Shown here in pieces: positions 54,432-63,576 of a DNA stretch of 64,000 nucleotides. The translations under genes were made by a program, and so were the position numbers. Numbering within the stretch: the stretch's first letter is position 1; every line of letters begins with the position of its first letter. This DNA comes from Cupriavidus gilardii (GTDB lineage Bacteria; Pseudomonadota; Gammaproteobacteria; Burkholderiales; Burkholderiaceae), in assembly GCF_008801915.1 (NCBI RefSeq), contig NZ_VZOV01000002.1:124001-188000 (forward strand), in the 5' to 3' direction. Below the pieces are notes generated by a model, which was not told the DNA's origin, made no database searches, and saw only the letters and a program-made list of their open reading frames with translations.

Positions 54432-54710
54432 ATGAGCACCCTGAATCTTTCCAAGACCGAACGCATTGACGTTCGTGCCAGCACGCCGGTCAAGCAGCTG
54501 CTTCAAGAAGCCGCACGCGCCTGCCACAAGAACGTCAGCGAGTTCCTGCTCGACGCGGGCGTGACGGCGGCCGCGCAGACGCTGGCGGATCGTCGCCAGT
54601 TCGTGCTGGACGACACACAGTGGCAGGCCTTCCAGGAGGCGCTGGACCGCCCGGTGCAAAGCAAGCCGCGTCTGAAGAAGTTGCTGCGTGAACCTGGGGT
54701 GCTGGATTGA
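54432..54710 (+). CDS. DUF1778 antitoxin (RHH, AtaR/TacA type)
   Basis: 92 residues. N-terminal ribbon-helix-helix (KTERIDVRASTPVKQLLQEA, CHKNVSEFLLDAGVTAA), then the toxin-wrapping C-terminal tail ending in KKLLREPGVLD. Such proteins neutralise the GNAT toxin and repress the operon. The ATG has GGAGGGG upstream, and the gene overlaps the toxin gene by 4 bp. First gene of the mobile region after ssrA. Confidence 0.9.
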   Translation: MSTLNLSKTERIDVRASTPVKQLLQEAARACHKNVSEFLLDAGVTAAAQTLADRRQFVLDDTQWQAFQEALDRPVQSKPRLKKLLREPGVLD

Positions 54711-55210
54711 GCAATGACTACTCGCCCGTTCGCAAGCTGGCTGCAACGGATCAGGTCGATGCGTTCGACTGCGGCCAGGCCGCGCTGAACCAGTTCCTGC
54801 AGCGCTACGCGCTCGTCAACCAGAAGGCCAACAGCGCGCAGACCTATGTCTGCTGCCAGGGTGACGTGGTGGTCGGCTTCTACAGCCTAGCCGTTGGTAG
54901 CGTCGATCCGGAAGCCACGCCGTCGAGAGTGATGAAGGGGCTGGCGCGCCACCCGGTGCCGGTCATGATCCTGGCCCGGCTCGCCGTGGACAAGGAGCAT
55001 CAGCGTAAAGGTCTGGGCCAGGCCTTGCTCAAGGATGCACTGCTGCGCACCGCACAGGCCGCCGACATTGCGGGTATCCGCTGCCTGTTGGTCCATGCCA
55101 AGGACGACGCAGCACGGCAGTGGTACGAATCGTGGGAATTCGACCCCAGCCCGACTGATCCGTACCATCTGTTCCTGATGCTCAAGGATCTCAAAGGCAT
55201 GTTGAGCTGA
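54707..55210 (+). CDS. GNAT-family acetyltransferase toxin (TacT/AtaT type)
   Basis: 167 residues from a TTG start that overlaps the antitoxin stop, so translation is coupled. GNAT fold with acetyl-CoA loop LAVDKEHQRKGLGQALL and the C-terminal LLVHAKDDAARQWYESWEF, including the tyrosine that is catalytic in AtaT/TacT. Known members acetylate the amino group of charged tRNAs and block translation. Start DYSPVRKLAATDQVDAFDCG matches family members. Convergent with the next gene. Confidence 0.88.
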   Translation: MSNDYSPVRKLAATDQVDAFDCGQAALNQFLQRYALVNQKANSAQTYVCCQGDVVVGFYSLAVGSVDPEATPSRVMKGLARHPVPVMILARLAVDKEHQRKGLGQALLKDALLRTAQAADIAGIRCLLVHAKDDAARQWYESWEFDPSPTDPYHLFLMLKDLKGMLS

Positions 55211-55228
55211 GGTGGTGTCTCCACCTCA
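55208..55228. other. Hairpin carrying the two convergent stop codons
   Basis: TGAGGTGG / CCACCTCA with loop TGTCT. The toxin stop is the first three bases and the facing gene's stop (reading minus) the last three. No T tract. Confidence 0.55.
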
Positions 55229-55657
55229 GAGTCCGACTCTCTCCCGCTGCTCATCCCACAGCGCTGGCGGATCAACCGCCAGATCAAACAGCGTGACGTG
55301 GTTCGGCAATTCGTCGTCCAGGATGGCCGCCACGATGTCGGGTGCCAGCGTGGTCAGGTTGACCATCCGGCTGACGTAGCTGTTGTCGATCCCCTCCCGC
55401 GTGGCGATTTCCTTCAAGGACTTCGCTTCCCCCGATTCCAGCATCGCCAGCCAGCGGTGACCCCTGGCCAGCGCCAATTGAATGGAGGTCGGTGCCACGT
55501 CCCATGGTCTGACCGGTGCAGTCTCACCGTTCGGGAGAGTGACCAGCTTGCGGCCGCTGCGCCGCTTGATCTGGATCGGCACAGACAGAGTTAGCCGGCC
55601 ATCACTCGCCTCAACGATGTCCGGCTCGCCAGTTTTCTGGATGCGGATGTCGCTCAT
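55226..55657 (-). CDS. ParB-like HTH protein of a recombinase cassette
   Basis: 143 residues. A helix-turn-helix is suggested by SLKEIATREGIDNSYVSRMV, followed by APDIVAAILDDELPNHVTLF as in ParB/KorB-like DNA-binding proteins; the N-terminal part (LSVPIQIKRRSGRKLVTLPN) is basic. Proteins of this kind commonly accompany recombinase plus DUF2924 genes on islands. Its start overlaps the recombinase stop by 4 bp (ATGA). Role unknown; perhaps a partner for recombination direction or regulation (inference). Confidence 0.7.
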   Translation of the reverse strand: MSDIRIQKTGEPDIVEASDGRLTLSVPIQIKRRSGRKLVTLPNGETAPVRPWDVAPTSIQLALARGHRWLAMLESGEAKSLKEIATREGIDNSYVSRMVNLTTLAPDIVAAILDDELPNHVTLFDLAVDPPALWDEQRERVGL

Positions 55658-57009
55658 GCCAACGCCTCCGCTTGTTGCTCGACCGGCTCGGGACGCAGTT
55701 CAAGCACCAGCCGCTCGATGCCGTTGGCGCGCAATCGCACCTCGAGGTCATTGGGCGACACGATCACCTTCTCGACCAGCAATTTCACGATCCGGGTCTG
55801 CTCCGCCGGGAACAGTTGATCCCAAATCGCGTCGAGTCGGGTCATGGCCACGGTGATCTTGGCCTCGTCCAGCGTTGGGTCGAGCTTGATCGCTTGCGGC
55901 AGCATGTCGCCGAGCAGATTCGGGGCACGCAGGATGGCACGCAGTTGGTCGAGCACCGCCGATTCGAGTTCTGCGGCAGGCAGTCGCGGCAGACCCGAGG
56001 CGCCCGCGTGTTCCTTGGCGTCGCGCTGGGGCACGTAGTAACGGTAGCGTCGGCCATTCTTCTTGGTGGTGTGCCACGGCGACAGCGCACGGCCGTCGTT
56101 GCCGAACACGATGCCCTTGAGTAGATAGGGAACCTTGGCCCGCGTCGTGTTGCCCCGCACCCGGCCGTTGGTATCGAGGATCGCGTGGACGCTGTCCCAC
56201 AGTTCGCGGCTGATGATGGGCGGATGCTCGGCCTGGTACCACTGGTCCTTGTGCCGCAACTCGCCAAGGTAGGTTCGGTTGCTCAGGAGCTTGTAGATGT
56301 GACCCTTGTCGATCGGCCTGCCATCGCGGGTCTTACCGTCTTGCGTGGTCCACGCCTTCGACGTCACGCCATCCAGTTTTAGCTCTTTAACCAGTGCGGT
56401 GCTGGACCCGAGTTCGACGAAGCGCTGGAAGATGTGCCGGATCAGCTTGGCCTCACGCTCGTTGGGCACCAACCGCCGGTTCTCGACGTCGTAGCCCAGC
56501 GGCGGCACGCCGCCCATCCACATGCCCTTGCGCTTGCTGGCGGCGATCTTGTCGCGGATGCGCTCGCCAGTGACCTCGCGCTCGAACTGCGCGAAGGAGA
56601 GCAGGATGTTCAGCATCAACCGGCCCATCGAGGTCGTAGTGTTGAACTGCTGGGTGACCGACACGAACGACACGCCGTAGCGCTCGAACACCTCGACCAT
56701 CTTGGAGAAGTCCGCCAGGCTACGCGTCAGGCGGTCGATCTTGTAGATGACGACCACGTCAATCTTGCCAGCTTCGATGTCCGCCATCATGCGCTGGAGC
56801 GCCGGGCGCTCCATGTTGCCGCCAGAAAAGGCGGGATCATCGTAATCGTCGGCGACCGGAATCCAACCCTCCGCGCGCTGGCTGGCGATGTAGGCGTGAC
56901 CGGCATCGCGCTGAGCATCGATGGAGTTGTATTCCTGGTCCAGCCCTTCATCGGTGGATTTGCGCGTGTAGACCGCGCAGCGCATGCGGCGCTTCAAGAC
57001 TTCGCTCAT
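55654..57009 (-). CDS. Large serine recombinase
   Basis: 451 residues. Resolvase catalytic domain: serine nucleophile in AVYTRKSTDEGL (residue about 18), VVVIYKIDRLTRS (Asp/Arg active-site segment) and LLSFAQFEREVTGERIRDK. It is followed by a Recombinase domain (GGVPPLGYDVENRRLVPNER to LLSNRTYLGELRHKDQWY), and then a coiled C-terminal region. The zinc-ribbon part is reduced: the expected cysteines are absent, as in the short PinR-like group. Likely the element's own integrase, although direction of integration is not shown. Confidence 0.9.
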   Translation of the reverse strand: MSEVLKRRMRCAVYTRKSTDEGLDQEYNSIDAQRDAGHAYIASQRAEGWIPVADDYDDPAFSGGNMERPALQRMMADIEAGKIDVVVIYKIDRLTRSLADFSKMVEVFERYGVSFVSVTQQFNTTTSMGRLMLNILLSFAQFEREVTGERIRDKIAASKRKGMWMGGVPPLGYDVENRRLVPNEREAKLIRHIFQRFVELGSSTALVKELKLDGVTSKAWTTQDGKTRDGRPIDKGHIYKLLSNRTYLGELRHKDQWYQAEHPPIISRELWDSVHAILDTNGRVRGNTTRAKVPYLLKGIVFGNDGRALSPWHTTKKNGRRYRYYVPQRDAKEHAGASGLPRLPAAELESAVLDQLRAILRAPNLLGDMLPQAIKLDPTLDEAKITVAMTRLDAIWDQLFPAEQTRIVKLLVEKVIVSPNDLEVRLRANGIERLVLELRPEPVEQQAEALA

Positions 57010-57512
57010 CGACCACCTCTCTTCTTGGTGGCGGGCTTGGCCTTGGCGTTGGACGGTGGCTTGAGGCCAAAGAACAGCGGACCCGACCAGCGCATGCCTG
57101 TGATTTCGCGGGCGATCATCGAGAGGCTCGGGTACATGCGGCCCTGGAAGTCATATTGGCCGTCGGCGGTCGCGATCACGCGGTACTCGACGCCTTTGTA
57201 TTCACGGACCAGCACCGTGCCTGCGGCCGGACGGTAGTCGCGGTCGCGCTTTTTCACCTTGCCAGTTTCGACCAAAGATTGGATGCGACGCTGATTGCGA
57301 TCCAGCAGATTGGCGTTGACCTTGCGGAACTCAAGCTCCTGCAGTCGGTAGGCAATCCGGCGTTCGAGGAACTGGCGGTTGTGGGTGGGTGTGTCGCCAC
57401 CGACCAGCTTCTGCCAGAGTGCCCGGATCTCTGCCATCGGCATCTCGGGCAGCCTGGCGATCTGCGCCGCCACCGACGGCGGCGTGGAAAATAATGGTGT
57501 TTGTGTACTCAT
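57006..57512 (-). CDS. DUF2924 domain protein
   Basis: 168 residues. Family core: VAAQIARLPEMPMAEIRALW, FLERRIAYRLQELEFRKVN, then a small barrel-like portion (GTVLVREYKGVEYRVIATAD, SLSMIAREITGMRWSGPLFF). DUF2924 genes travel with serine recombinases on islands and phages; role unknown, possibly a recombination accessory factor. Overlaps the recombinase start by 4 bp (ATGA). Confidence 0.88.
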   Translation of the reverse strand: MSTQTPLFSTPPSVAAQIARLPEMPMAEIRALWQKLVGGDTPTHNRQFLERRIAYRLQELEFRKVNANLLDRNQRRIQSLVETGKVKKRDRDYRPAAGTVLVREYKGVEYRVIATADGQYDFQGRMYPSLSMIAREITGMRWSGPLFFGLKPPSNAKAKPATKKRGGR

Positions 57513-57852: not shown

Positions 57853-59067
57853 TTAGCTCGCCAGATGACGGGCGAGGATGGTCTTCATCAACGAATTGCC
57901 TGGCTGGGTGCTGGCGATCATGTCCCGGATCTGCTCGTTGACCTGCTGGGTTGGCAACCCAGCGTTCTCCGCCGCCTGCGTGACTGCCGAATAAGCATCG
58001 AGCACATCAGCGCCGGTGATCTCATAGCCGTGTCCAAGAGAGATCCAACGCAACGCGGCGAGGCCTGCGGCGAGCGCGAATGCTGGCTGCTTCTCGGCGT
58101 AGTCACGGGCAGCGCGCGTCAGCGTGCGTGGATCGGTCGGGCTGCGCGTGCCCAGCTCGATCGCCGCATTGAACAAACCCGCATCCTTGGCAGCGGCGAA
58201 CCACTTGCCCTCGGCGCCAGGCGTGCTGGCTACCAGGTCGCGTAGGATCTCTTCCGGCTGCTTATGGGGATACTTCTTGGCAATGGCGCGAAACGTCGCC
58301 AGGTTCGTTGTGCCCTGATTCGCCTCGATGGCGTAGCGGCGGTAGGCCTCGTCGAGCAAGCCCGAGGACAACAGGATTTCTTCGCAGGCCTGGGCAATCT
58401 GCCAGCCAGGATCATTGAGACCGCGCGACTCCTCGGCATAGCGGATCGCCTCCGCCTTCCTGCCCATCGCTGCCAATGCCTTCACGCCCCAGCGCCGATC
58501 GTGCCACCACTTGAACCGCGCCTTGTCGAGTAACGCCAACAGTTCCTGGTGGCGGCCCGCCGCGTACATCGATGCTAGGCAAGCGCTGGTGCCTTTGAAA
58601 AATCCATGTCCGGAAGCCTTCGGGCTCCACACGCTCTCGACGACCGGCAAAAACTCATCGGCCCAGTGCGACGCCAGTTCCGGCGTCACGCATAACTCTC
58701 CCCAGTAATCGCCGAGCACTTCGATGTAGGGTATCTCGTCTTCCTGCAGCGCTTGCCACAAGCGTCCGAGCCAGCGTAGTCGCAGCTTCGGCTCGACATC
58801 GGCCTTGGCAATGATCGGCACCAGTGCGTCGATGGCCTTGTTGACCGCCGAGCCCAGGGCACCCGAGGAACTATCAACCTGCTCGAGCGCCGGGGACAAC
58901 TTTTCGAGGAGTTGCACCGCACCCTCGGCCGCGAGCAGCGGCTCCTTGCGCGCGACCTGCTTGATTTCCGCGAGGGCTTCCTTGATACGCTGAATTGGCG
59001 TATCGGATCGCCAGCCGAAGGCGTGACGACGGAAGCGGGAACTGAACTGCCATTTGTGCGCGCTCAC
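57853..59067 (-). CDS. Helical protein of unknown function (404 aa)
   Basis: Starts at a GTG (SAHKWQFSSRFRRHAFGWRS) with GAGGA seven bases upstream; a TTG two codons before is too close to that site. Entirely alpha-helical in appearance, with repeat-like pairs such as LRLRWLGRLWQALQEDEI, ELLALLDKARFKWWHDRRWG and FALAAGLAALRWISLGHG, which suggests a TPR/HEAT-like solenoid. No catalytic motif, membrane segment or signal peptide. It begins 17 bp after the ImmA/IrrE gene on the same strand. I cannot assign a known family. Confidence 0.75.
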   Translation of the reverse strand: MSAHKWQFSSRFRRHAFGWRSDTPIQRIKEALAEIKQVARKEPLLAAEGAVQLLEKLSPALEQVDSSSGALGSAVNKAIDALVPIIAKADVEPKLRLRWLGRLWQALQEDEIPYIEVLGDYWGELCVTPELASHWADEFLPVVESVWSPKASGHGFFKGTSACLASMYAAGRHQELLALLDKARFKWWHDRRWGVKALAAMGRKAEAIRYAEESRGLNDPGWQIAQACEEILLSSGLLDEAYRRYAIEANQGTTNLATFRAIAKKYPHKQPEEILRDLVASTPGAEGKWFAAAKDAGLFNAAIELGTRSPTDPRTLTRAARDYAEKQPAFALAAGLAALRWISLGHGYEITGADVLDAYSAVTQAAENAGLPTQQVNEQIRDMIASTQPGNSLMKTILARHLAS

Positions 59068-59084
59068 GACCAATTCCTCATGAT

Positions 59085-59996
59085 CTATCGCACAGGGTAC
59101 TGGCCGTTGCGGATGAATCGATCAAAGGTATCCTCCTCTGCCTCTTCATCATCATGCCGAGGCCGTTGCCATTCGGCGTCGGGCATCAACAGCAGCGTCA
59201 GAGTGTAGTCGTACTGCCCCGCCACCCGGGTCATTTCAGTGACGGGCATGCTGGTGGGTTCGCGTGGAAACCAGTCCTGTGCTCGGCCCGTCTGTTGATC
59301 GCCTGCATCCCAGCCGTTGTAGCTGTGAGCCAACGCTTGTCGAGGCAACTCGATGGTGTTCTTGCGGGTGGCGAAGTAAGCGCCGGACCGTAGTGCCGCC
59401 TCGTTCGACTTGGCCCACAGCATGTGATCATCACGACTGGCCACCAACACGGCGCGCTTCGGGGCGATTTCGGTCCAGCGCAAGGCTGCAGCCGTCAGCG
59501 AAACGCCGTAGCGATCCGCGCAGTGACTCAGCAGATCGAAGCTGATCGACTGCCCATCCACCTGGCGCCGGAAGTCGTCCAGCGGCATCAGCAGGGTCGA
59601 AGCAAACAAGTCCGCTTCTGACTCGATGTCGCGCTCGTTGTTGTCGCCCGTTTCGATGTCGCCGTCGCCGCACTCGAATAGGTCCCGCTGGTGGCGGTGC
59701 AGGATGTAGTGGCCGAACTCATGCGCGATCGTGAAGCGCTTGCGGCCCTCCGAAGGGGTGGCACTGTTGTATAGGAGCAGCCACTTCGAGCGCGCCTTAT
59801 TGGCTTTCAGCAGACCATCGAAACCGTCGAGATCTTCGCCCTGGACCTTGTCGATCGGCGAGTCTGAAAAGCACTGGCGGGAATACTCCAGCGCCAGCTC
59901 GTCAACCTTGACCGGAAAACGATCCGCACCGAGCACCGTGTTGAGCATGGACGAGATGCGATTGGCCTCGGCCATGGGCTTCTTCGCCTCCGTCAT
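59085..59996 (-). CDS. ImmA/IrrE-family metallopeptidase
   Basis: 303 residues. Zinc-peptidase signature TIAHEFGHYILH (H-E-x2-H) near residue 95, with downstream ESEADLFASTLLMP supplying the third ligand. In ICEBs1 and in Deinococcus the relatives ImmA and IrrE cleave an XRE repressor after DNA damage. The N-terminal 90 residues and the C-terminal stretch (ending NGQYPVR) are extra to the domain. Overlaps the XRE gene by 4 bp (ATGA), a standard repressor/protease pairing. Confidence 0.92.
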   Translation of the reverse strand: MTEAKKPMAEANRISSMLNTVLGADRFPVKVDELALEYSRQCFSDSPIDKVQGEDLDGFDGLLKANKARSKWLLLYNSATPSEGRKRFTIAHEFGHYILHRHQRDLFECGDGDIETGDNNERDIESEADLFASTLLMPLDDFRRQVDGQSISFDLLSHCADRYGVSLTAAALRWTEIAPKRAVLVASRDDHMLWAKSNEAALRSGAYFATRKNTIELPRQALAHSYNGWDAGDQQTGRAQDWFPREPTSMPVTEMTRVAGQYDYTLTLLLMPDAEWQRPRHDDEEAEEDTFDRFIRNGQYPVR

Positions 59997-60313
59997 TCAT
60001 CTTCCCAGGCATCGAGGATCTTGCGGATCTTCTTTTTGTCCGGCTCCGACATGGTTTTGTACTTGCGGAAGAAGGCCTCGTCGAGCACTTCCTCGTCCGG
60101 GGTGGTTGCCGACTCGGTCAGCAGGAACTCCGTGGTGACCTCAAGGACGGCGGCGATCTTGCCGATCTTCTCGGCCGATGGCTTTGGGTCGTCTTTGTTT
60201 TCCAGTTCCCAGATGTAGCTCTTGCTGGAGTCGGTCAGTTCGGCCAACTGTTCCAGGCTGAGCTTCTTTTGCTTCCGCAGTGCGCGGATCTTGTCCCCCA
60301 GGGGCGATGGCAC
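59993..60313 (-). CDS. XRE-family repressor
   Basis: 106 residues from a GTG start with GAGGA upstream. HTH_XRE: LGDKIRALRKQKKLSLEQLA, ELTDSSKSYIWELENKDDPK, IGKIAAVLEVTTEFLL. The C-terminus (TTPDEEVLDEAFFRKYKTMS) is the likely target for the co-encoded protease. Should bind the palindromes in 60358-60434. Confidence 0.9.
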   Translation of the reverse strand: MPSPLGDKIRALRKQKKLSLEQLAELTDSSKSYIWELENKDDPKPSAEKIGKIAAVLEVTTEFLLTESATTPDEEVLDEAFFRKYKTMSEPDKKKIRKILDAWEDE

Positions 60314-60357
60314 CGGTATTTCCTCATTTGTTGGCTTCAATCCTAAAATAATACCAC

Positions 60358-60434
60358 TGTACCGAACGAATTCGTACCTGCTTGACAAACCTATAACCGC
60401 TCCGCGACAATCTAAATCGTTCGGTACACCGAAC
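60358..60434. promoter_or_regulatory. Operator-promoter region of the XRE switch
   Basis: Plus-strand promoter: consensus -35 TTGACA at 60382-60387, 18-bp spacer, -10 GACAAT at 60406-60411. Palindrome ACGAATTCGT at 60366-60375 lies just before the -35 and GTTCGGTACACCGAAC at 60419-60434 lies just after the -10. A 10-bp inverted pair TGTACCGAAC (60358-60367) and GTTCGGTACA (60419-60428) spans the whole promoter. Confidence 0.75.
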
Positions 60435-60517
60435 TTCATCGGTCTGCACACCCCAACAAGAAGAAGGGGCCGTCGAGGCTGATACCAAGCCGATCCAAAC
60501 CTTTGAGGGGTATGTAG

Positions 60518-61747
60518 ATGAACGATGCAGAAAACCTGAGCAAGCTCCTGGGCCACCTGCCACCGGCGGTGTTCCGTGAATTTATGGTGGATGAATTCGG
60601 CCTGGCCATGCCGGACGCGGACGCCAAGAAGCCCAAGAAAGAACAGCGTGAGCAGATGGAGGCTGTGCTCGCGGCTCTTGGGGTGGGCGAGCGGCAGCGG
60701 ATCGAAGAAGTGGCCGAACGGATCGTGCTGCTGTCGGACGGCGCCGGCCAGGACGTCATCGACGGCTTTAAGGACGACATCTTCGATGACGCGGCCCGGG
60801 AAACCTTCGCAGCGATTCCGAACCAGTACGAGCGGGCGCTGTGGCTGCACGTCCATGAACCCGTGATCTTCGAGGAAGCCCTCAACGCCCGACAGGCCGA
60901 CGTGTTCCGGCAAAGCGCCTCCTGCTACTCCGGTTTCATGGCACCTGCCAATCTGGCGGTACTCGACGACGCGACGGCCAAGGCGGCATTCCACCAAACC
61001 GTCGCCCAGCAACTCGGGTGCTCCGATGACGCGGTCGCGATCCAGATCTTCAAGCGTCTGCGGCCCGACACGCAGACCGGCGAGGATGTGGATCTGTACC
61101 AGATCAGCATCCATCACAACCGCCCACCGGAAATCATCGACTGCGTGCAGGCGAGCGAATTGGTGCCCCAGAAAGTGATCCGGGCGGTGTCTTCGCACAT
61201 CACATACGAGCCGGCCAATGGGCACCTGGAGGTGCTGTCGAAAGATACGGCTGGCCGGGAAGCATTGGCGCGCATCGTGGCCGACTCCCTGCTGCAATCG
61301 CCCATCACCGGCGAGAAGATCCCGCTCAAACAATACGACTACCAGAGCTTGGCGGCGCCGCGAAATTTCGATTTGTCCGGCGAGCCGGTAGCGTTCGTCA
61401 AGGTCGTCGAGCTCGGTTACGCCGCCGGAAATGGGCGGTCGCTCCTGGTGAAGATCTGGACCAAGGACGTCGATGACATCTATGCGGCCGCCCGGTCGTT
61501 GATCGGCCCCGCCTTCGACTTCCGCGATCACCACCTCAACTACGCCAAGCTGTCCATCAAGCTGAAAAAGGTCGGCAAGGACCGCGCACGGACGATTACC
61601 GTGATCCTGCGTGACGACAACAAGTGCAACATCAAGACCAAGCGGGAAAAGGACCGGGCGCTGTGCGACCGACTGCTGGCCAAATGGCATCTTGTGAAGG
61701 AGATCGGCCATGTCGTCGAAGCCCCTGCCGACACAGTCGCTGCTTGA
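60518..61747 (+). CDS. Unrecognised island protein, first gene of the divergent pair (409 aa)
   Basis: Starts MNDAENLSKLLGHLPPAVFR with GAGGGG upstream. The N-terminal about 110 residues are helical and charged (VGERQRIEEVAERIVLLSDG); the rest mixes strands and helices (VFRQSASCYSGFMAPANL, VDLYQISIHHNRPPEIID, AFVKVVELGYAAGNGR), ending KKVGKDRARTITVILRDDNK and a basic stretch. No domain that I can name, no signal peptide or membrane segment. The next gene starts 38 bp before its stop, with its own AAGGAG, so both are made from the promoter at 60382. Confidence 0.7.
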   Translation: MNDAENLSKLLGHLPPAVFREFMVDEFGLAMPDADAKKPKKEQREQMEAVLAALGVGERQRIEEVAERIVLLSDGAGQDVIDGFKDDIFDDAARETFAAIPNQYERALWLHVHEPVIFEEALNARQADVFRQSASCYSGFMAPANLAVLDDATAKAAFHQTVAQQLGCSDDAVAIQIFKRLRPDTQTGEDVDLYQISIHHNRPPEIIDCVQASELVPQKVIRAVSSHITYEPANGHLEVLSKDTAGREALARIVADSLLQSPITGEKIPLKQYDYQSLAAPRNFDLSGEPVAFVKVVELGYAAGNGRSLLVKIWTKDVDDIYAAARSLIGPAFDFRDHHLNYAKLSIKLKKVGKDRARTITVILRDDNKCNIKTKREKDRALCDRLLAKWHLVKEIGHVVEAPADTVAA

Positions 61748-62714
61748 ACTGATCGACCTGTTCGAGCAGTCTGGGCAGCCGATTGCCGACGGCGACGGAC
61801 TGCGGCTTCGTGGGGTGCCCGGGTGGAGTGTCCTTGGACGGACATCTTTGACGCCGAAGCTGCTGGAGCAGTGGACCGACTGCGTCGGCTACGCCGGGAG
61901 TTACCCTGCATCGCTCGACGACGAACTTGTCAATGCTGACCTGACCGAAGATGAGCAGGCTGATCGGTATCGCTACCGCTGTCCTCAGACTTTTCGGTGG
62001 AAGTTTGTCCCCGCCGCCGAAGTCGCCGTCTACAGCGTTCGACCAGCAGCAATCCTGAGCACCATCGCCGATCTCCTGGGTATCGCGCAGGCTCTGCGAA
62101 AAGGGATCGATGCGCCGCTGCTGGACGATGCCCTCTGGCATTTGGGGAAGGCACGAATCGGCCCCGCGCTGACAGACGTCTGGCTCGTTCGCGGCTTGGC
62201 GCACTCCGTCGAAGAGGTATTTCGCCACTTCAGCCAGACAAGTCTTCCTGACCAGGGTCTGATCTTGTCGTCTGGCGGTGTATTGCCGCAGTTTGTGCGC
62301 CCACCTCGCAGTTACCGATTCGCATCGCTACGAGCTGCAATCGTCGACTACGTCGCCACGCCGTGCATCGACATGGATCTCCTGCATCGCATCCTGGCCG
62401 CTTCGCCCGATGGCGCGATCCGCCCCGTGTTGCCGGTGCACTTCGACGAGTACACCAACACGCTGACCATCCGCACCAAGACCAAGCCCTGGACGATCAA
62501 AGGAGAGCGTCAGGCTGCGGCAGTCCGCTACATGTTCGAACAGGCCATCAACGACAGGTGGATTCTGTCAGCCGCTGAAATTCTCGACGCAGCCTATGCA
62601 GATAAGAAGACGGCGCGCAGCCAGCGCATGCAGAACCTGTTTAGCGGCAACACGGAGTGGGAGGACTACATCGACAACCCTGAGAAGGGAAAGTATGGCT
62701 TCCGCCGAGATTGA
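61710..62714 (+). CDS. Unrecognised island protein, second gene of the divergent pair (334 aa)
   Basis: Starts MSSKPLPTQSLLELIDLFEQ with AAGGAG seven bases upstream, within the last codons of the previous gene. The C-terminal about 75 residues (LTIRTKTKPWTIKGERQAAA to KGKYGFRRD) look like a winged helix of the response-regulator kind, ending in a GY-type hairpin; this is a pattern-level guess. The middle carries helices around LLGIAQALRKGI. A terminator follows 28 bp after the stop. No known family. Confidence 0.7.
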   Translation: MSSKPLPTQSLLELIDLFEQSGQPIADGDGLRLRGVPGWSVLGRTSLTPKLLEQWTDCVGYAGSYPASLDDELVNADLTEDEQADRYRYRCPQTFRWKFVPAAEVAVYSVRPAAILSTIADLLGIAQALRKGIDAPLLDDALWHLGKARIGPALTDVWLVRGLAHSVEEVFRHFSQTSLPDQGLILSSGGVLPQFVRPPRSYRFASLRAAIVDYVATPCIDMDLLHRILAASPDGAIRPVLPVHFDEYTNTLTIRTKTKPWTIKGERQAAAVRYMFEQAINDRWILSAAEILDAAYADKKTARSQRMQNLFSGNTEWEDYIDNPEKGKYGFRRD

Positions 62715-62742: not shown

Positions 62743-62764
62743 AACCGCCTTCGGGCGGTTTTTT
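62743..62764 (+). terminator. Rho-independent terminator after the divergent pair
   Basis: Stem AACCGCC / GGCGGTT with loop TTCG, then four more T. It closes the 60518-62714 operon and separates it from the AlpA-like gene. Confidence 0.9.
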
Positions 62765-62896
62765 GCTTTCTGGCCCCCGCTTTTCCCCGCAGAAGCTGCG
62801 CCCGTACATCAGCCCGTACATGGCGGCGGCAGACGCCCGCACAGGCCGACTTCGAAACTGACCTCATGAATTCGCAACAACCAGAAGGAGTGCATC

Positions 62897-63109
62897 GTGA
62901 GTGTCAAACATCTGAATCAAGGCCAACTGGCCGAACGCTGGGGAGTCAGCGAAGCCACGCTTGAGCGCTGGCGTTCCGAGGGAATCGGTCCGGTATTTCT
63001 GAAGCTGCAAGGTCGCGTCGCCTATCGCATCGAGGACATCGAAGCCTACGAGGCAGAGAGCCTGCGCAAGAGCACCTCTGAACGCGTCAATGCTGGAGGT
63101 GCGGCATGA
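62897..63109 (+). CDS. AlpA/excisionase-type HTH protein (70 aa)
   Basis: GTG start with AAGGAG upstream. A single winged HTH of the MerR-like/AlpA class: LNQGQLAERWGVSEATLERW, RVAYRIEDIEAYEAES. Such small proteins in phages and islands act as excisionase or early activator. Overlaps the next gene by 4 bp (ATGA), so they are co-translated. Confidence 0.85.
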   Translation: MSVKHLNQGQLAERWGVSEATLERWRSEGIGPVFLKLQGRVAYRIEDIEAYEAESLRKSTSERVNAGGAA

Positions 63110-63576
63110 ACCGTATCTCTCCCGATCAGGCATTGGCCACCCCAGCCGGTGAACTGGCTGAGCTTGCCAGCGAATCGCTGTTCCAGCTCAAAAACGACGC
63201 GACTGATCTTCTTTCCATGGCCAAGGCGATCGTCGAGCACGTCGATCGCGCACTGGACCTCAAGTACGCCGGCCGCGCTCACCAGCTGCGCCTGGCAGCC
63301 GGCAAAGACACCGGCGTCGTCCATTTCGACGACGGCCATGTCCGCATCACCGCCGATCTGCCCAAGAAAGTCGACTGGGACCAGAAGCGGCTCGCCGAGA
63401 TCACCCGGCGCATCGCCGCCAACGGTGACGACCCGTCCGAGTACGTGGAGATCAGCTATCGGATCTCGGAAACCAAGTTCAACGCGTGGCCCGAGTCGCT
63501 CAAGAGCGCCTTCGCTCCGGCACGCACCCTCAAGACCGGCAAGCCGGGCTTTCGTCTCGCTCTGCTTCAGGAGTAA
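63106..63576 (+). CDS. Phage-like hypothetical protein (156 aa)
   Basis: Starts MNRISPDQALATPAGELAEL. N-terminal half helical (LKNDATDLLSMAKAIVEHVD), then VVHFDDGHVRITADLPKKVD and RISETKFNAWPESLKSAFAP. No domain assigned; the gene order (HTH, this, small gene, P-loop ATPase) resembles early or recombination regions of temperate phages and islands. Confidence 0.7.
   Translation: MNRISPDQALATPAGELAELASESLFQLKNDATDLLSMAKAIVEHVDRALDLKYAGRAHQLRLAAGKDTGVVHFDDGHVRITADLPKKVDWDQKRLAEITRRIAANGDDPSEYVEISYRISETKFNAWPESLKSAFAPARTLKTGKPGFRLALLQE

Follow-up and report, generated by a model that had tools for sequence, protein, structure and literature searches.

Predicted CapH/CapP-type control of a candidate trans-acting activator pair in a Cupriavidus gilardii prophage

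Introduction

CapH and CapP were reportedly presented by Lau et al. in 2022 as regulators of cyclic oligonucleotide-based antiphage signaling systems (CBASS) and other immune operons. According to passages of two papers, single-stranded DNA activates the protease CapP in the described systems and CapP then cleaves the repressor CapH (PMC13373217, PMC10904395), and the two proteins guard immune operons elsewhere (passages of PMC13373217). Here a five-gene block that includes genes for proteins of these types is analyzed within a 64,000-nucleotide (nt) stretch of Cupriavidus gilardii contig NZ_VZOV01000002.1 (positions 124,001–188,000), which as a whole is termed the window and to whose first letter the coordinates refer. 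Three minus-strand genes that specify an XRE repressor, an ImmA-type protease and a 404-amino acid (aa) protein face two plus-strand genes that specify proteins of 409 and 334 aa. The arrangement is probably the switch by which a temperate siphophage is induced, in two steps and with a protease as the trigger; the 409- and 334-aa proteins would form an undescribed activator pair that acts on the early operon in trans.

Results

All five reading frames of a preliminary description of the locus were recovered with the coordinates and strands that it gave. They are kept as long reading frames across many relatives and are therefore real genes and not chance frames. Neighboring minus-strand genes either overlap by 4 nt or are 11–17 nt apart, and the two plus-strand genes overlap by 38 nt. 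The repressor gene (59993–60317, minus strand) lies in a frame open to 60343 and probably starts with the GTG at 60317, which is preceded by GAGGA. Its product matched HTH_3 in Pfam (3.5e-12), the CapH model in PADLOC (1.9e-31) and structure 7t5u (8.5e-16), an entry described as a helix-turn-helix protein which we take to be the structure of CapH. The protease (59085–59996, minus strand) matched the ImmA/M78 family in Pfam (3.7e-18), the CapP model in PADLOC (1.2e-73) and the solved CapP structure 7t5t (6.8e-74) with the HExxH motif aligned. Judged by these matches, the XRE and ImmA proteins are members of the CapH and CapP regulator families, in keeping with the derepression switch that had been proposed for them. 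Between the recombinase and the last identified tail gene, no protein other than CapH matched HTH_3. No immune operon (CBASS, bacteriophage exclusion (BREX) or others) adjoins the two genes in PADLOC, phrog and Pfam scans; the neighbors are prophage genes, which bears on the role of the proteins and not on their families.

Leftward of the five genes are a large serine recombinase (55654–57009) and a DUF2924 protein (57006–57512) which, with a 143-aa protein, form a backbone segment (55226–57512, minus strand) assigned from Pfam and phrog profile matches. Rightward, the early operon begins with genes for an HTH_17 protein (62897–63109) and a phrog_2480 protein (63106–63576, both plus strand) and, beyond the window, there follow Sak4, helicase, primase, ParB-methyltransferase, small and large terminase, portal, major head, tape measure and tail proteins. 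The five-gene block is part of a siphovirus-type prophage that extends past the window and not a free-standing defense cassette. Relatives of the 409-aa protein were found at 56 distinct viral-contig loci (66–100% identity; designated by L numbers), several on contigs of 40–50 kb, and the 334 gene stands beside the 409 gene in 55 of them. CapH and CapP both are present in 40 of the 43 viral loci in which 1500 nt or more precede the 409 gene, and HTH70, p156 and Sak4 in 51 of the 52 with enough flank. In a profile search the 409 family occurred in 30 of 398 Pseudomonadota genomes, that of the window included. Among 40 genomes (the window's own, 23 of the same genus and 16 of the same order) the 409-aa gene was found in only two, that of the window and another from the same order, and the prophage therefore looks like a recent arrival by this count.

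A palindrome of the form GTTCGGN4CCGAAC lies between capH and the plus-strand pair, with the sequence GTTCGGTACACCGAAC at 60419–60434 that was found once in 112 kb. The 409/334 operon has a predicted promoter, TTGACA-18-GACAAT (60382–60411, plus strand); the palindrome starts 8 nt after its −10 hexamer, and a conserved operator half-site, CCGAAC, is at 60362–60367. The shared control region that had been suggested for the divergent genes is borne out by this promoter and palindrome. The palindrome also scored as terminator-like on the minus strand (1 found versus 0.5 expected). CapH is present in 58 of 62 distinct upstream regions; 55 of these 58 have exact palindrome arms and all 58 the half-site, the four central bases of the palindrome taking 11 forms. 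One further region (L017) is without a CapH match only through the contig end, and the palindrome is present there. At L046–L048 capH is replaced by another regulator and the palindrome is absent, the 409-aa protein being kept at 74–76% identity. At L076 and L078 CapH is 97–98% identical and the palindrome is kept, and the 409/334 pair is swapped for a distant version (the 409 part is 20% identical in L078; L076 is listed without an intact long frame). The site follows capH because it is kept where the pair is replaced and missing where capH is replaced. The palindrome is predicted to be the CapH operator.

The 409-aa protein (60518–61747, plus strand) matched the phage family phrog_37634 (4.1e-33) and is predicted to have a remote RdgC/RexA/CENP-N/CENP-L-type fold; its profile matched no RdgC or RexA chain among solved structures and no Pfam family. 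The 334-aa protein (61710–62714, plus strand) has a C-terminal OmpR-type winged helix, and no receiver domain was detected with Pfam either in this protein or among 45 family members. The two proteins are fused into one in some phages. At loci of the type of Acidithiobacillus phage AcaML1 (L169–L173, L237), the 409/334 protein occupies the integrase side in place of CapH/CapP, and at L171 a gene for a PIN-domain protein precedes it. Between the window and L006, L008, L010, L017 and L020, two allele classes of the 334-aa protein (~50% identity) replace one another; the 409-aa protein of those phages is 93–98% identical and the repeats described below are unchanged. No description of the pair was found among the matches listed in a search of open-license papers on CENP-N, CENP-L and RdgC.

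The pair looks regulatory, and an effector or defense role, earlier envisaged among others, is not supported. It is highly unlikely that the block is a self-contained defense cassette guarded by CapH/CapP, in which the pair would be the effector and which would have come to reside in prophages. Although guarding of immune operons is the part that CapH/CapP play elsewhere (passages of PMC13373217) and the block is invertible as a unit, PADLOC returned no defense-family match for the 409-, 334- or 404-aa proteins, the pair constantly accompanies phage early genes (51 of 52 loci) and the 334-aa protein has regulatory features.

An intrinsic terminator (62743–62764, plus strand) lies behind the pair; all 62 distinct intergenic regions that follow the 334 gene contain one. 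Relief of CapH repression should therefore give the pair only, barring read-through. Past the terminator, GCCCGTACAT, 2 nt, GCCCGTACAT, 13 nt and GCCCGCACA form three direct repeats (starts at 62800, 62812 and 62835; 62800–62843, plus strand) with a phasing of ~11.5 bp, located between the terminator and the early replication genes and constituting the predicted target of the 334-aa protein. OmpR/PhoB-type regulators bind tandem direct repeats ~11 bp apart. A pattern that demanded a 2-nt first spacer and allowed 10–16 nt for the second was fitted by 86 of 94 rows (duplicates included), with a second spacer of 13 nt in all 86; seven of the eight rows off-pattern were viewed and are variants of the same array. 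Among 31 divergent loci that were named, 29 were analyzed (L018 and L057 were left out). Perfect 8-mer direct repeats occurred there at offsets of 11, 12, 22, 23, 33, 34 and 35 and otherwise once, at 9, with at least one such repeat in 21 of the 29 loci (shuffle mean 0.07 per offset) and with sequences often unrelated among loci. L213 and L246 failed the strict 8-mer test, yet 7-mers at offset 12 are visible; L110 and L111 failed because the assumed start was too far downstream, a repeat at offset 21 or 23 being found further up. L167, L171, L237 and L228 have no perfect 8-mer direct repeat before the early gene.

In four distinct loci (L018, L057, L157 and L172) the repeats have shifted in concert, GTAC having become CCAC. 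Alignment of the 334-aa protein gives 13 columns with residues confined to those loci, mostly in the winged helix; there are no such columns in the 409-aa, HTH70 and p156 proteins, nor in CapH and p127, for each of which just two altered rows were available. Thus, among six proteins tested, only the 334-aa protein has changes that match the repeats. A tree gives two origins for the repeat change, as L052, the sister of L057, retains GTAC, and position 312 of the 334-aa protein is K in both changed lineages and S (one A) elsewhere. The three-row clade and L057 have 2 shared and 13 confined columns, compared to at most 1 and 7 with any other row. Across divergent families, none of 8 loci with TAC/TAA-type repeats has a basic residue 312, compared to 11 of 13 with CAC/CAG/CCC-type repeats (Fisher 2.2e-4; 7e-4 without near-copies; assignments made by eye and uncorrected for relatedness). 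This test counted 21 of 29 loci that have a listed repeat type: L246 has no 334 gene in the stretch, and in L212, L078, L085, L088, L110, L111 and L210 the helix alignment or repeat core was not clearly comparable. By eye, L078, L085, L088, L110 and L111 combine a basic residue 312 with C-type repeats. The 334-aa protein is predicted from this covariation to recognize the phased repeats. Several points weigh on the other side: L057 is the longest branch in the comparison of shared and confined columns; by eye, L212 is an exception and L210 (basic, T-rich repeat) may contradict the rule for position 312; and a simple recognition rule is at odds with the identical repeats of the two ~50% identical allele classes, though both have S at 312.

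The 334-aa proteins of L216 and L218 are 95% identical across 257 aligned residues. They differ in 14 columns of the shared part, 13 of which fall within the last 50, and their repeats read TCCTACC and TCCTCAG, respectively. The two loci present a natural helix swap, differing mainly near the recognition helix and having repeats that differ to match.

The CapP-CapH|409-334 block is inverted relative to the phage backbone at L209, L213 and L246 (L209 and L246 are cut at one end). The view of the locus as a self-contained cassette holds to the extent that the block inverts as a unit, but the block is part of a prophage. In the inverted L213 and L246 the repeats remain in front of the early genes, and in L213 the 334 gene is ~2.4 kb off, on the far side of CapH/CapP. 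A trans-acting regulator explains this layout, which a role for 334 as the leader gene of the early operon does not.

The orientation of the block bears also on whether the pair could be a repressor unit, Cro-like or autoregulatory, whose 334-aa protein, seated on the phased repeats, shuts off or times the early operon. The case for binding is drawn from covariation only, which is compatible with either sign, and RexA-fold proteins can affect phage switches by weakening the repressor (passages of PMC11077077). However, the conserved terminator parts the pair from the early genes, and the derepressed promoter of L213 and L246 faces away from them; because of these two features the early promoter needs a starter, for which a repressor alone is insufficient, and the repressor interpretation is considered unlikely. 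There is very little likelihood that the pair instead is the directionality factor of the large serine recombinase, made first on induction to serve excision. The pair does accompany the recombinase and DUF2924 and shares their orientation in L209, L213 and AcaML1, but a separate HTH_17/excisionase-like gene exists, a plasmid pair described next is without a recombinase of this family in the scanned DNA, and the repeats that covary with the pair are at the early promoter.

A plasmid of Candidatus Tenderia electrophaga carries a distant 409/334 pair (409-aa part 28.9% identical) directly before multiubiquitin, JAB-like and ThiF genes that form a Bub-like operon (L179:8812–13493; CP013100.1, 4862–9543). 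When 21 prophage proteins were compared with 99,909 of the 106,908 bases of the plasmid, only the 409-aa protein found a match. Three copies of TTCACAC lie between the pair and the operon at 0, 12 and 33. A threefold array with such spacing was produced by 0 of 20000 shuffles and 6 of 20000 first-order resamplings, and 2 of 2123 overlapping windows of the plasmid contain one. The plasmid 334-type protein has R aligned to position 312, as the rule for this position predicts for CAC. The pair and repeats possibly represent a new type of regulator for Bub operons.

This array bears on the proposal that the repeats are origin iterons and the 334-aa protein a winged-helix replication initiator. Phased direct repeats and a winged helix would suit iteron-binding initiators too, and replication genes come next in the prophage. 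Nevertheless, the proposal is improbable: the arrays stay ~50–105 nt from the early start codon in the loci displayed (53 nt in the window), the inverted block included, and on the plasmid an array precedes a multiubiquitin operon.

The 404-aa gene (57853–59067, or to 59073 with a longer start; minus strand) was described earlier as a member of the unit, which a comparison of gene orders does not support. Of 35 viral loci with enough flank, 19 contain it; capP and a 72-aa gene are separated by 1348–1384 bp with it (19 loci) and 136–171 bp without it (17 loci), and a further locus without it (L031) has a gap of 527 bp. Its relatives are numerous (306 of 359 pattern matches in genome contigs, of which the best 80 were kept). 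At 46 of these best 80 genome loci the fetched DNA, some contigs being only 3–5 kb, contained neither the recombinase nor CapP. Neighbors were compared at 44 of the 46 (L115 and L137 fell out), and no partner was common to more than five. Relatives also occur on plasmids, for instance adjoining Tn3 transposase and integrase genes. The gene is gained or lost cleanly and is not a fixed member of the set; it is a separable, optional passenger riding in the lysogeny operon. The preliminary description had named separate occurrence of the unknown proteins, or a match to a known phage family, as evidence against its module: this applies in part, to the 404-aa gene, which occurs separately, and to the 409-aa protein, which matches phrog_37634.

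Further features of the prophage family were noted. A plus-strand pair (92 and 167 aa; 54432–55210) between the transfer-messenger RNA gene and the recombinase module resembles, to our eye, a DUF1778/GNAT-like toxin-antitoxin arrangement. The nearest named phages of the large terminase (L003:5522–7486) are Rhodobacter phages (55%) and Wolbachia phage WO (53%), and DUF2924 also comes up in a listing of papers on Wolbachia prophages. A Fic-domain gene (L068:6227–7351) is on the control side of a related prophage in a Burkholderiaceae metagenome-assembled genome, where the CapP match spans half of the protein.

Discussion

In the two-step switch favored here, CapH would bind GTTCGGN4CCGAAC at the start of the rightward promoter and hold the 409/334 operon silent. 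DNA damage would generate single-stranded DNA, CapP would be activated and CapH cleaved, as we infer from CapH/CapP elsewhere. The 409- and 334-aa proteins would then be made, with transcription stopping at the terminator behind them. The 334-aa protein would bind the phased repeats through its winged helix, probably in company with the RdgC-fold 409-aa protein, and the early operon (the HTH_17 gene, phrog_2480, Sak4, helicase and primase) would be activated in trans. What the sequence comparisons show of this scheme is the operator, the terminator, the repeats and the gene orders, together with the coupling of the operator to capH and that of the repeats to the 334-aa protein. Activation in preference to repression and the part assigned to the 409-aa protein are, like the cleavage of CapH, what we infer.

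A broader proposition, for which the chances appear even, is that the pair is the first representative of a class of trans-acting activators not described before, consisting of an RdgC-fold protein and a receiver-less OmpR-type winged helix, which forms a second tier of the switch below exchangeable repressors in a large prophage family. DNA recognition would be largely readable from two positions of the helix, 309 and 312, and one or more plasmids would have borrowed the pair and repeat array to control a ubiquitin-like (Bub) immune operon. If these interpretations are correct, CapH/CapP, a known guard of immune operons, here controls lysogeny on behalf of a phage, and an activator pair of undescribed kind carries out the executive step. 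Two orphan families, 409 and 334, would gain a likely function, the DNA sequence read by each 334 variant is predicted and hence directly testable, and a phage regulator would be linked to a bacterial ubiquitin-like operon. No account of CapH/CapP as a prophage switch was found among the matches listed in a search of open-license papers.

The closest described arrangement is that of CapH/CapP in CBASS and other immune operons (passages of PMC13373217 and PMC10904395). The likeness lies in protein families that are the same by sequence and in a repressor and protease next to a divergent operon, with an operator-like palindrome between. In contrast, the controlled operon here is the regulatory pair of the phage itself and not an immune effector. 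ImmR/ImmA of ICEBs1 and TnSmu1 likewise comprise an XRE repressor and ImmA protease that, in passages of PMC10233336, are held to derepress the mobile element upon DNA damage. Here, however, a dedicated regulator pair would be released first, and the sequences are those of the CapH/CapP branch. SetR is a repressor over SetCD, and the latter is related to FlhC/FlhD. In SXT/R391 elements, SetCD is described as an activator of two subunits which binds close to the −35 element of promoters situated elsewhere in the mobile element (PMC4344509). The likeness is one of regulatory logic only, as the present pair, controlled by a repressor and protease of the CapH/CapP type, combines an RdgC-type predicted fold with an OmpR-type winged helix. 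Lambda RexA and bacterial RdgC share the predicted fold of the 409-aa protein, and RexA too pushes the phage switch toward lysis (passages of PMC11077077). Profile searches of solved structures found no sequence similarity between the 409-aa protein and RexA or RdgC; unlike these, it is produced from an operon that faces the repressor, has an extra N-terminal helical part and has a winged-helix partner instead of RexB. Finally, gp6 of AcaML1 is a fused 409 and 334 relative, 68.6% identical to the fused protein of L171 and set in the same recombinase backbone. It differs from the pair in the window in being fused and in lying on the integrase side, with no CapH/CapP beside it in the stretch viewed.

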